A stretch of 50,996 nt of DNA from assembly GCF_016793705.1 (NCBI RefSeq), contig NZ_JAEULO010000007.1, forward strand, positions 1 to 50,996, read 5' to 3'. Origin of the DNA: Tabrizicola sp. (GTDB lineage: Bacteria > Pseudomonadota > Alphaproteobacteria > Rhodobacterales > Rhodobacteraceae). A program made the translations under genes and the position numbers. Positions 23,739 through 38,590 of this stretch are shown here, one piece after another. The notes beneath the pieces were generated by a model. It was not told where the DNA came from. It ran no database searches and saw nothing but the letters and a program-made list of their open reading frames with translations. Numbering within the stretch: position 1 is the first letter of the stretch; the number at the start of each line of letters is the position of its first letter.

Positions 23739-26700
23739 CTAACCCAGGTCCGCCAGTCGGGCCAGGGCCTCCCCGATCTTCGATGCCTCTTCCTGGCGCG
23801 CCTCCAGGTTCGAGGTCGCCTCCATCACCACATCCTCCGGCGCGGACCTGACGAAGTTCGGATTGTCGAGCCGCCCTTTCAGCCCGCCGATCTCCTTCGC
23901 CAGCTTGTCCAGCGCTTTCTGCAACCGCGATTTCTCCTCGGCGATGTCGATCAGCCCGGCGAGCGGGATCGCGAAAGCCGCCCCCTCCGCCGCCACCGCG
24001 ATGCTGCCCTTCGGTGCCGCACCTTCGGTGACAGTCTCCACCCGCGCCAGCCGCTTGATCAGCGCCTCGTTGCGCTGGAACGCCGCGCGGGCCTCGTCGG
24101 TGAGCGAGGTCGCCACCAGATCGGCCTTGAGGCCCACCGGCACATGCACCTGCGCCCGGGCAGACCGGATATCGTCGATCAGCGTGGTGACGAAGGTCAT
24201 CTCGCGTTCCGCGTCGCGGTCGATCAGGGTGGCGGGCAGCTCCGGCCAGTCGGTGTGGACCAGCAATTTCGCGCGCTTGCCGGTGGTGCCCCACAGCTCT
24301 TCGGTGATGAAGGGCATGAAGGGGTGGAGAAGGATCATCGACTGGTCCAGCACCCAGGCCATCGTCGCGCGGGTCTCGGCAGCATCCGGGCCGTCGAACA
24401 GCGGCTTGGCGAATTCCACATACCAGTCGCAGACCTTGCCCCAGACGAACTTGTAAAGCGCATCCGCCGCCTGGTCGAAGCGGAAGTCCGCCAGCGCCAC
24501 GTTCACCTCGGCCAAGGTCTTCACCGTCTCGCCGATGATCCAGCGGTTCGCGGTCGCCTTGGGGTTGGGGGTGGGGCCGGTCGCGTGACCCTCCCAGACC
24601 CCGTTCATCTCGGCGAAGCGGCAGGCGTTCCACAGCTTCGTTCCGAAGTTCCGGTAGCCCGCGATCCGCTGGGTGTCGAGCTTCAGGACGCCGCCAAGCG
24701 AGGCCATCGCCGCATTGGCGAACCGCAGCGCATCGGCGCCGTATTCGTCGATGATCTCCAAGGGGTCGATGACGTTGCCCAGGGACTTCGACATCTTCTT
24801 CCCCTTGGCATCGCGGACGAGGCCGTGGAGGTAGACGGTGCGGAAGGGAATGTCGTCCACCACGGCCAGCTGCATCATCATCATCCGGGCGACCCAGAAG
24901 AACAGGATGTCCTGCCCGGTCACGAGGACCGAGGTGGGGAAGTATTTCTTCAACTCCTCGGTTTGTTCCGGCCAGCCGAGCGTGCCGATGGGCCAGAGGC
25001 CGGAGGAGAACCAGGTGTCGAGGACGTCGGGCTCGCGGTAGATCGTTACGGCGCGAACCGTGTGACCATTCCTGTCATACGGCATGCTGTGCGACGGTTG
25101 ACCCGCGCCATTCGATCCGAGCGAAACGCCCACCTCGAAGTCCGGCCCGTAGTATTCTTTGGCCAATTCCCGCGCTGACTCGCTGTCCGGTGCGCAAAAA
25201 CTCACCTGTGAGAACTTCTGGCCTTCCTCGTTGCCAATGAAGTCCTTGGCGACCCCATACCACACCGGAATCTGGTGCCCCCACCAGAGCTGGCGCGAGA
25301 TGCACCAGGGCTCGATGTTCTCCAGCCAGTGGTAATAGGTCTTCTCGCCGCTCGGCGGGATGATCTTCGTCCGGCCGGTCCGCACCGCATCAAGCGCGGG
25401 CTCGACGATCTTGGCGGTGTCGACGAACCACTGGTCGGTCAGCATCGGCTCGATCACGACCTTGGACCGGTCGCCGAAGGGCTGCATGATCGGTTTCGCT
25501 TCGACATAGGGGACGTAGGCCGGGGCGTGCCCCGGCTCTTCCGCCGGAGTCGGGGCACGCCCCGACCTACCAAGACGCGGATCGTCGGGAAGCACCATCA
25601 CCGCCAGCCCCTCCGCGGTGATCTGCTCCACCACCTGCTTGCGCGCCTCGTAGCGGTCCAGTCCGCGCAGGTCGTCCGGCACCAGGTTCAGCGCGTCCAC
25701 CTCCGCCTCGCTCAATGCAAACGGCTGCTCGGCGAACCCCGGCGTCGCATAGCCCTTGGCCACCAGCCAGGCCCGCGACATGCGCAGCGCCACTTCCGCC
25801 GCCTCGGCATAGGGCACCCCGTCCGCCCGCATCTGCGCGCGGGTGTCCATGAGCCGGTAGCAGGGGATGTCGGCGCGCTTGGCCACCGCATAGTCGTTGA
25901 AGTCATGCGCTCCGGTGATCTTCACCGCGCCCGAGCCGAACGTCGGGTCGGGATATTCGTCGGTGATGATCGGGATCAACCGGCGGTGTTCCTTTGGCCC
26001 AACCGGAATTTCGCAAAGATGTCCGACGATTGGCGCATAACGTTCATCCGATGGATGAACCGCCACCGCGCCATCGCCCAGCATCGTCTCGGGCCGGGTG
26101 GTGGCGATGGAGATATAATCCCGCGTCTCACGGAAGGTCACATTCCCCTCCGCGTCTTTCTCGACATATTCGTAGGTTTCCCCCCCGGCCAAAGGATACT
26201 TGAAGTGCCACATATGGCCCGGCACCTCGATATTCTCGACTTCCAGGTCGGAAATCGCGGTCTCGAAATGCGGGTCCCAGTTCACCAGCCGCTTGCCGCG
26301 ATAGATCAGGCCCTTGTTGTAAAGGTCGACGAAGACCTTGATCACCGCATCGTGGAAGTTGCCCTCCTCGCCCGCCGGAGCCCCCGGCGCGCCCGACATG
26401 GTGAAGGCCTCGCGGTCCCAGTCGCAGCTTGCCCCCAGCCGCTGCAACTGCCCGATGATCGTGCCGCGCGACTTCCGCTTCTGCTCCCAGACTTTCAGGG
26501 TGAACGCCTCGCGCCCCATCTCGCGGCGGCTGAGGTTGCCCTCCTTCGCCATCTCGCGCTCGGTCACCATCTGGGTTGCGATCCCGGCATGGTCGGTGCC
26601 CGGCTGCCAAAGCGTGTCGTCGCCCTGCATCCGGTGCCAGCGGGTCAGGATGTCCTGCAAGGTGTTGTTGAACGCATGGCCCATGTGAAGCGAGCCGGTG

Positions 26701-26843
26701 ACGTTCGGCGGCGGGATCATGACCGAAAACGCCGGGCGTCCGGGCCTGGCATTCGCGCCCGCCTTGAACGCCTTGGCGTCCAGCCACAGCTTCGAGATCC
26801 GGGCCTCGGCCTCGGCGGCGTTGAAGGTCTTTTCCATCGGCAT
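23739..26843 (-). CDS. valS: Valyl-tRNA synthetase
   Basis: A 1034-residue class Ia synthetase. The HIGH-type motif HMGH is at residues 53-56 in [14 protein letters not shown], the editing domain follows, KMSKS appears in [14 protein letters not shown], and the C-terminal coiled coil ([19 protein letters not shown]) closes the protein. It is longer than the ~950 of E. coli, partly because of ~19 residues at about 425-443 encoded by a palindromic element (25515-25570). Those residues are rich in Pro, Ala, Gly and Arg and unlike their surroundings. They fall before the conserved [17 protein letters not shown] segment and keep the frame. The start may be 26843 or two codons later. Confidence 0.97.
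25515..25570. repeat. REPIN-like palindromic element inserted in frame in valS
   Basis: A 56-bp unit that starts GTAGG and ends CCTAC. It consists of two hairpins in inverse orientation: GCCGGGG-CGTG-CCCCGGC (25519-25536) and GTCGGGG-CACG-CCCCGAC (25549-25566), each a 7-bp perfect stem with a 4-base loop. The loops are complementary to each other. This is the organisation of REPINs, which are paired REP sequences with 5' GTAG heads. Confidence 0.85.
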
Positions 26844-36595: not shown

Positions 36596-37810
36596 TCAGC
36601 CGCGCCCCGCGATCACCCCGGCCAGCCGTTCCGCATCCTTCCAGGCCCCCCAGATGAAGGACGATCCCCGACACGACAGCCAGGGCAGGCCCATGAAATA
36701 GAGCCCCTTAACCTCAGACACACCCTCCTTGTGGCGCGGGCGACCATCGGGCTGGAAGATGTCCAGGTCGATCCAGCCGAAGTCCAGCCGGAAGCCGGTG
36801 GCCCAGATCACGGTAGAGATGCCTTCCCGCTTCAGGTCCAGCGCCAAGGTCGGCTGCGTCACGCAGTCGGGCAGGGGCAGCAGGTTGCGCGCCTCCGGCT
36901 CCTCGGGAAGGTCAAGGCCATTGGCCCTGGCATAGGCGTCGGCCTCGTCCAGCACCGACAGGTAGTTCCGGTCGCCGGCCTCCATGTTGGTCCGCAGATC
37001 ATTGGCGAACTGCAGCACACCGTCGCGGTAGTCGCCCGCCCGGCCCAGAAGCGTCACGCCAAGGCCCGCCAGACGGCGGAAGTCCATCGTATGCCCGCCA
37101 TAGGCGCCGCTCACCGCGATGGTGATATGCTCGGTCCCCGGCGTGGGCGCCTTCATGTCCCATTTGCCCAGCTTGCCCAGCCACCAGACGAAATCCTGCC
37201 CCCGGTAGCGGCGCGGCGGGCGGTCATGCGGCCCGAGCGAGAGGTACACCCGGCGGCCTGCGCGGACCAGTTCCTCGGCGATCTGCGCGCCGGATGACCC
37301 CGCGCCCACCACCAGCACCGCGCCTTCGGGCAGCTGGCCGGGGTTGCGATAGCTGTTGGAATGCATCTGCGTGATCGCGGGATCGGTGATCACGGTCGGG
37401 ATCACCGGCTTCTGGAACGGGCCGGTGGCCACGACGACGTTCTGCGCGGCGATCTCGCCGATCGAGGTGGTGGCTCGGAAACCGTCGCCCTGGCGTTCCA
37501 GCTTGGTGACCTCCACGCCGGTGCGGATCGGCAGGTTCCGGTCCCCGGCAAAGCGGACGAAGTAGTCGGCGACCGCCTCCTTCGGCGCGAATTCGTCGGG
37601 GTCGAGGTCGGTGAACTCGGCATCCGGGAAGCGGTCGTGCCAGGCGGGGCCGTTGGCGACCAGGCTGTCCCAGCGCCAGCTCCGCCAGCGTTCCGCGATC
37701 CGGTCGCGTTCGAGGACGAGGTGCGGCACCCCCTGCTTCCGCAGGTGAGCCGAGGTGGCGACCCCGGCCTGACCGCCGCCGACGACGAGGGTATGGATGG
37801 ATTCGGTCAT
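36596..37810 (-). CDS. Flavin-containing monooxygenase (COG2072)
   Basis: A 404-residue FAD/NADPH flavoprotein. The FAD fold is HTLVVGGGQAGVATSAHLR, the FMO-type linker reads MHSNSYRNPGQLP, the NADPH fold is VLVVGAGSSGAQIAEEL, and the ATG-type motif appears as VIWATGFRLDFGW. It belongs to the FMO group that includes N-hydroxylases and Baeyer-Villiger enzymes; the substrate cannot be read out. It is the most downstream gene of the minus-strand cluster running from 41999, but a 108-bp gap with the TGTCCAC/GTGGACA palindrome suggests its own promoter. Confidence 0.88.
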   Translation of the reverse strand: MTESIHTLVVGGGQAGVATSAHLRKQGVPHLVLERDRIAERWRSWRWDSLVANGPAWHDRFPDAEFTDLDPDEFAPKEAVADYFVRFAGDRNLPIRTGVEVTKLERQGDGFRATTSIGEIAAQNVVVATGPFQKPVIPTVITDPAITQMHSNSYRNPGQLPEGAVLVVGAGSSGAQIAEELVRAGRRVYLSLGPHDRPPRRYRGQDFVWWLGKLGKWDMKAPTPGTEHITIAVSGAYGGHTMDFRRLAGLGVTLLGRAGDYRDGVLQFANDLRTNMEAGDRNYLSVLDEADAYARANGLDLPEEPEARNLLPLPDCVTQPTLALDLKREGISTVIWATGFRLDFGWIDLDIFQPDGRPRHKEGVSEVKGLYFMGLPWLSCRGSSFIWGAWKDAERLAGVIAGRG

Positions 37811-37835
37811 GTTCTATGGCCCCTGAATGGAAGAG

Positions 37836-37850
37836 TGTCCACGGTGGACA
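37836..37850. promoter_or_regulatory. 15-bp palindrome TGTCCAC-G-GTGGACA in the FMO promoter
   Basis: A perfect 7-1-7 palindrome starting 26 bp upstream of the FMO start codon. It has the same arms as at 4086-4100. A further GTGGAC lies ~40 bp upstream in the same gap. Position fits an operator. Confidence 0.5.
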
Positions 37851-37918
37851 TTTTCTGATTACGAAGTAAAATGAGATGATTATCCGTGGACGTTAACCGT
37901 TTCTTCATGGCTTGAAAG

Positions 37919-38590
37919 CTACTCATCGCCGGGCACTCCGTAAGAGGGAGCCCGGGTCGGATCCTCCGCCCGCTGGACATAGGCGGCCATCTGCGGGGCG
38001 TAGACGGTCCAGGCTTCGCGCAACATTCCGATGGGGTTGTCGGACCAGTCGATCCGCAGATCGACCAGAGGCCAGTCCAGCCGGTCGGCCACCTTCAGCC
38101 CGGTGGAATGCACCGGCCCCGCTTCGCCACCGGCCTGCAACCCGGCTTCCAGTGCAAGCATCAGACGTTCCGCGAGGTGGCCTTTGGCAGCGGTAAAGGC
38201 TTCGACCATCGCCATCGGGACAAGTTCCCCCGCAAGGAGGTTGCCTCCCGCCGCACAGTCGGTGGCCCGCGCCTCGCCCCAGATGCCCAGCACCTGCCGC
38301 CCGGAATGGATCGCCGTCCGCCCTTCGCGATCGACGACCAGAAGCTGCCGGTAGTCGATGTGCGGGCGGTCCGCGGTGACGACCGCAAGGGCATCGGCGG
38401 CTGGAAGGCCCGATTCCAGCTGGTCCAGCACCATGGGCCCCAGCGCCGGGTCGGTGATGTTCTGGCTCGCCACCGCCCCCACGCCCGCGCGGACATGGGC
38501 GCAGCGCGCCGCGACGGCGGGCGAGGAGGAGGAGATGGCCATCCCGAACTGCCCGGTCCGGGCGCAGCGGGCGACGATGGAGAAGGTCAT
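37919..38590 (-). CDS. DUF1028 (Ntn-hydrolase-like) protein
   Basis: A 223-residue protein with the DUF1028 pattern: MTFSIVARCARTGQFGMAISSSSPAVAARCAHVRAG, ASQNITDPALGP, and the GRQVLGIWGEARATDCAAGGNLLAG core. The family has a predicted N-terminal-nucleophile fold. It is repeatedly found in amine, amide or peptide catabolic clusters; no reaction is established. It follows the RidA gene after 10 bp, so the two are cotranscribed. Confidence 0.88.
   Translation of the reverse strand: MTFSIVARCARTGQFGMAISSSSPAVAARCAHVRAGVGAVASQNITDPALGPMVLDQLESGLPAADALAVVTADRPHIDYRQLLVVDREGRTAIHSGRQVLGIWGEARATDCAAGGNLLAGELVPMAMVEAFTAAKGHLAERLMLALEAGLQAGGEAGPVHSTGLKVADRLDWPLVDLRIDWSDNPIGMLREAWTVYAPQMAAYVQRAEDPTRAPSYGVPGDE

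Follow-up and report, generated by a model that had tools for sequence, protein, structure and literature searches.

The occurrence of a palindromic repeat within the valS gene of a Tabrizicola genome raises the question of how a REP unit entered the coding region of an essential enzyme, valyl-tRNA synthetase (ValRS), and whether the residues encoded by it alter editing or aminoacylation. The window analysed was the whole contig C15 (50,996 nt) of the source genome G000, an assembly of 3.84 Mb in 73 contigs that was 94.5% complete.

The REP pair in the valS gene

The features of the valS locus are given below in window coordinates.

23739..26843, minus strand: valS, valyl-tRNA synthetase, 1034 aa (uninterrupted ORF and NF004349 match)
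25491..25598, minus strand: hypervariable ValRS loop with the REPIN, residues about 416-451 (comparison of relatives)
25547..25570, minus strand: REP unit 1, minus-strand sequence GTAGGTCGGGGCGTGCCCCGACTC, the same as that of two units in the RAYT gene of G000
25539..25546, no strand: 8-nt spacer between the REP units (inverted-repeat search)
25515..25538, plus strand: REP unit 2, plus-strand sequence GTAGGCCGGGGCGTGCCCCGGCTC, the inverted partner of unit 1

The earlier note had described a 56-bp inverted pair of GTAG-headed hairpins that was translated as about 19 Pro/Ala/Gly-rich residues with the frame open on both sides, and this description was borne out. The uninterrupted 1034-aa ORF matched the valine--tRNA ligase model NF004349 with 1157.5 bits (cut-off 704). 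A search of the genome with the ValRS protein returned 5 matches, and among those listed were valS itself and two proteins of 29-30% identity. Two 24-nt GTAG-tagged REP units, inverted to each other and almost perfectly matched, made up positions 25515-25570; as arms (25515-25538 and 25547-25570) they were 92% complementary with 8 nt between them. By coordinates, the pair encoded residues 425-443 (19 aa).

Each arm on its own formed a small stem-loop with a GTAG head. The whole pair folded at -52.9 kcal/mol on one strand and -52.1 kcal/mol on the other (z of -5.95 and -6.25), and none of 200 shuffles was as stable. The best inverted repeat in the whole valS CDS scored 18, compared with 8-12 in 30 synonymous-codon shuffles. 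When up to 3 mismatches were allowed, a 22-nt pattern of the unit had 2 matches in the window, against an expectation of 0.01. Five of the six reading frames of the REP unit were open, thus in-frame capture of such a unit is easy.

The unit GTAGGTCGGGGCGTGCCCCGACTC had the terminal GTAG and the adjoining G+C-rich stem-loop of a GTAG-tagged REP. The pair had its GTAG ends outside and corresponded to an HH dimer, in the terms used in the available part of PMC3733652. Two inverted REPs formed one long hairpin, and a RAYT was present in the genome by NF047646, both as in a REPIN. Judged by the tag alone, the unit was GTAG-tagged and lacked the CGTC tag given for the Rickettsia palindromic elements RPE-4 and RPE-6.

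The REP family in the genome and the genus

When the repeat was searched for genome-wide, a 20-nt unit pattern with up to 3 mismatches was found at 33 places in G000, 18 of them exact, compared with 4 for the reversed control. A 24-nt motif with a free 4-nt loop occurred 28 times in G000 and was present in 27 of the 32 genomes of the genus; the reversed control gave 0 in G000 and in all the others. The variant with the CGTG loop, as in valS, was the commonest in G000 among the matches listed. Loci were available for 30 of the 33 places and were grouped by hand into 22 sites. The element was thus multicopy, dispersed and mostly intergenic, and units lay in frame within genes at 3 of the 22 sites, namely valS and the following two genes.

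G000:C38:35248-35306: REP pair, tags inside, in frame in the NAD(P)H-hydrate dehydratase/epimerase gene (loci L009, L010)
G000:C6 about 37457-38041: RAYT gene with an in-frame GTAG REP pair inside the ORF (loci L003, L322)

In valS and in the NAD(P)H-hydrate dehydratase gene the codon usage was coding-like on both sides of the units, and no stop codon lay between. The latter gene matched Pfam PF01256 and PF03853, and its REP insert was of 22 residues. The RAYT site was called in frame from the family match, its codon scores being weak.

The ValRS loop in the genus and beyond

A match at the ValRS site was obtained for 27 of the 32 genus genomes (none for 5). The matches were unsplit in 21 of the 27, and all of these had KKSVDKETG-type loops or close variants. 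Split matches were recorded for the other six (G000, G046, G001, G020, G003 and G004). The GTAG pairs at this loop had their tags outside in G000 and inside in G046. The loops of G001, G020 and G003 held CCCGGGTCAAGCCCGGG-type units, which were named CGTC-type by their tag and not by a published consensus. The loop of G004 (L050, G004:C3 about 125000) contained poly-G, poly-C and N in the assembly beside the end of a GTAG unit and retained CCCCGACCTA; a hairpin at this site may defeat sequencing. An insert of REPs in the ValRS loop was therefore not unique to G000, and other REP types lay in the loops of other lineages.

The relatives were further compared in a ValRS tree of 41 rows, from which the loop had been removed and L064 (same as L047) and L050 (garbled) left out. 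The nearest ValRS to that of G000 was that of G044 (92/95), which carried no REP and had a loop, TYLKKSVDKETGAEHLERVPYVE, wholly unlike the 21-residue loop of G000. The five REP-bearing genus rows needed 5 changes, at least 2 of which were forced by supported branches, compared with an average of 4.9 changes for shuffled labels, hence the REP label was not clustered. The tree contained weak forks, and the placement of G046 was unsure because of its long branch. The pattern indicated that either the REP state arose more than once or the loops were exchanged.

None of the 27 genus genomes that matched at the site yielded an empty-site allele with the same 10-residue flanks, and a precise insertion is therefore no more than possible. 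The proposal of the earlier note that a REPIN-like element lies in frame in valS was supported: the unit is a repeated GTAG element, the genome has a RAYT, and the residues of relatives did differ at the site. As a refinement, the whole loop differed from that of G044, and the element need not have entered by a clean insertion. The opposite reading, an ancestral coding sequence with the same residues encoded by non-palindromic DNA in all relatives, did not hold, since the site residues differed among the relatives.

The census of the loop was extended to 262 locus ids, which gave 224 distinct loops (13 ids had no row). The sample was mostly Rhodobacteraceae and not random, and included other rows, e.g. 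Rhizobiales and Maricaulis loci. The ids L162-L166 and L168-L172, being extra pieces of genomes already included and two transposase loci, were left out. Loop lengths were 8-76 residues with a median of 28, and the loop was variable even without REPs. Of the 224 distinct loops, 15 had REP units that could be recognised, and these belonged to four types or more; the figure gives no prevalence because the fetched regions favoured split matches. The units were recognised by eye, helped by pattern counts, and L245 was the least clear.

REP-bearing loops: L031, L167, L039, L041, L203, L047, L075, L099, L105, L254, L095, L245, L250, L242, L227

An inverted-repeat score of 17 or more was recorded for 7 of the 224 loops, when none of 969 same-length control windows from the same ORFs scored above 13. 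The excess was slight when all scores from 8 upwards were counted (32 of 224 loops and 102 of 969 windows). Nearly the same CGTC-bearing loop was observed in two genera, in L203 (G073) and in L039 and L041 (G020 and G001), which suggested an old insertion or an exchange.

The inserted REP type was found at 4 or more places in each of the 14 carrier genomes tested (the genome of L203 left out). The numbers of places were as follows.

CGTC-type pattern, genus: G001 45, G020 35, G003 4, G046 8, G000 6, G004 0; control 0
CGTC-type pattern, other genomes: G119 6, G139 24, G391 39; control 0
CGTC-type pattern, genomes of loci: L105 80, L095 38, L075 146, L099 0; control 0
TCCTCGGG type: genome of L099 33, genome of L075 33, G000 0, G391 0
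GTAGGGTGGG type, up to 3 mismatches, some sites counted on both strands: G155 41, G433 12, G024 17, G000 15; controls 7, 3, 1, 2

Both G155 and G433 had exact GTAGGGTGGG matches in the valS loop.

RAYT genes with internal REP pairs

A RAYT, for which the earlier note had proposed a search, was identified in G000 by NCBIfam NF047646 (REP_Tyr_transpos) with 171.8 bits (cut-off 80). A Pfam PF01797 search of G000 did not find it, hence a RAYT search by PF01797 alone can give a false negative. Two units identical to unit 1 of valS (24-mer) were located inside this ORF, the stop codon of which was supplied by the GTAG of the next unit. The NF047646 model scored above its cut-off in 28 of the 32 genus genomes and in 76 of 248 family genomes.

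Of 45 RAYT loci 41 were read, and 54 of 58 rows were used for a quick tree. About half of the 41 loci held a palindrome in the stretch that separates the IKARF motif from the WQ.RFW motif. GTAGGTC pairs occupied this position in nine genus RAYTs and in L381. Other inserts were found there in ten RAYTs (L344, L356, L362, L364, L366, L368, L369, L372, L376 and L378), which were classed together for the tree, some of the inserts being weak or single units; that of L378 was without a GTAG tag. The nine genus RAYTs formed one clade (SH-aLRT 99). Their arms existed in four versions that changed together and, apart from a single mismatch in L333, were fully complementary. The peptides differed, as would be expected if it were the palindrome in the DNA that is kept and not the protein sequence. 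REP pairs inside the RAYT ORF were seen again elsewhere in the genus, and other genera had RAYTs of this architecture with REPs of other types. Broken or partial RAYT genes of the same look were found in G004, G012 and G043.

The GTAGGTC-bearing RAYT subtype occurred in 12 genus genomes, G004, G012 and G043 among them, and these had more GTAGGTC units elsewhere than the other 20 (p=0.0017, one-sided Mann-Whitney with the listed internal units subtracted and relatedness ignored). For genomes at least 90% complete the same comparison, again with relatedness ignored, gave p=0.0008. GTAGGTC units were present in G001, G006 and G014, in which no RAYT was found by the NF047646 search. The loop type of the RAYT-internal units, judged by eye, was the commonest type of the genome only in some genomes.

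It was tentatively proposed, at a confidence somewhat below even, that in this bacterial family a RAYT lineage carries its own translated REPIN within the transposase gene, which would make the enzyme inseparable from its substrate, and that such self-linked systems repeatedly decorate one permissive ValRS loop. How a REPIN stays linked to its transposase can be tested directly on a RAYT that has a REP pair within its ORF.

Origin of the insert

Based on all comparisons, it is very likely that a GTAG REPIN, probably spread by a RAYT, lies in frame at a permissive hypervariable loop of ValRS and is neutral or nearly so. The recurrence of different hairpins at one variable loop points to a tolerated landing spot and not to a damaged or redesigned enzyme. 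The REPIN would have been spread by RAYT-type single-strand (HUH/Y1) chemistry and may have reached the loop either by transposing there or as part of a loop segment that was swapped. It would have survived because five of the six unit frames are open and the loop tolerates length changes, and the 19 encoded residues would be neutral or nearly so. The small number of places of the inserted CGTC-type pattern in G003, only 4, counts against this explanation.

The second of the two entry routes, in which a ValRS segment already carrying the REPIN came from another lineage by recombination, is compatible with the neutral REPIN and was considered possible but less likely than not. It accords with the wholly different loop of G044, the nearest ValRS in the tree, with the resemblance of the 10-residue flank of G000 to DDPRLG loops of other genera, and with the nearly identical insert of G001/G020 in G073, a member of another genus. 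A donor with the same REPIN-bearing loop was, however, absent among the 224 distinct loops, and the unit in valS was of the CGTG-loop variant most frequent in G000 itself among the matches listed.

Selection for the hairpin, either as a regulator of the valS mRNA (pausing, stability) or through residues that tune editing, was judged unlikely. The fold is very stable and recurs at one site, but it was absent from 21 of the 27 genus genomes, its carriers differed in types, lengths and peptides, and the loop varied even when no REP was present. Misjoining of a repeat into valS during assembly is very improbable: the 73 contigs of G000 and the poly-G and N at the G004 site, suggestive of a hard-to-sequence site, would allow it, but the same frame with coding-like codon usage continued on both sides, and in-frame units lay at the same site in other genomes.

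With these comparisons the single odd insert becomes part of a natural series, in which the same loop of an essential enzyme is filled by unrelated mobile palindromes across species. The series can serve to test by what route REPs come into coding DNA, which of the frames survive and whether such inserts are neutral.

Relation to known systems

Intragenic REPs were already known. REPs of the GTAG and CGTC families, HH and TT dimers of them and some in-frame units within genes are reported in the available part of Di Nocera et al. 2013 (PMC3733652). The host genes there include tRNA synthetases of three species, the amino acid not being named in the text, and different REPs occupy about the same site in recB of two Xanthomonas; REPs lie on either side of the RAYTs or overlap their ends. 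These families resemble the valS pair, as described there, in the GTAG tag on a short stem-loop and in their in-frame genic units, whereas a recurrent ValRS site is not described in that part, and the main text does not mention Rhodobacter or Roseobacter. In-frame palindromic elements, which the earlier note called well known in Rickettsia but not commonly described in Rhodobacteraceae, are described in this paper beyond Rickettsia as well.

The REPIN/RAYT (REPtron) systems, as presented in the available parts of PMC3116915 and PMC8266576, share with G000 an inverted REP doublet and a RAYT in the genome; their REPs are extragenic and border the RAYT, whereas the RAYT ORF of G000 has a pair inside it. 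For TnpAREP, PMC8266576 reports cleavage at a CT next to the GTAG unit. Like the valS pair, the Rickettsia palindromic elements (RPE) are repeated palindromes that housekeeping genes carry in frame and that are translated. Compared by the tag alone, RPE-4 and RPE-6 are of the CGTC type in the available part of PMC3733652, whereas the valS unit is of the GTAG type and has a RAYT in the genome.

In the open-licence literature, no paper joining a palindromic element with valyl-tRNA synthetase was found, PMC3733652 was the only one found joining RAYT with intragenic, and neither a recurrent ValRS REP site nor RAYT genes with an in-frame REP pair were found described. The ValRS series and the RAYT pair within the ORF are new as far as this literature was searched.

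Predicted structure of ValRS

The predicted structure was poor over residues 410-475 and left the REPIN loop without a place in three dimensions. The insert (residues 431-439) had a pLDDT below 50, which says little because the conserved residues 449-470 were likewise below 50. A second variable stretch of ValRS was observed at window positions 25050-25260 (residues about 531-598), where the matches to many congeners also break.
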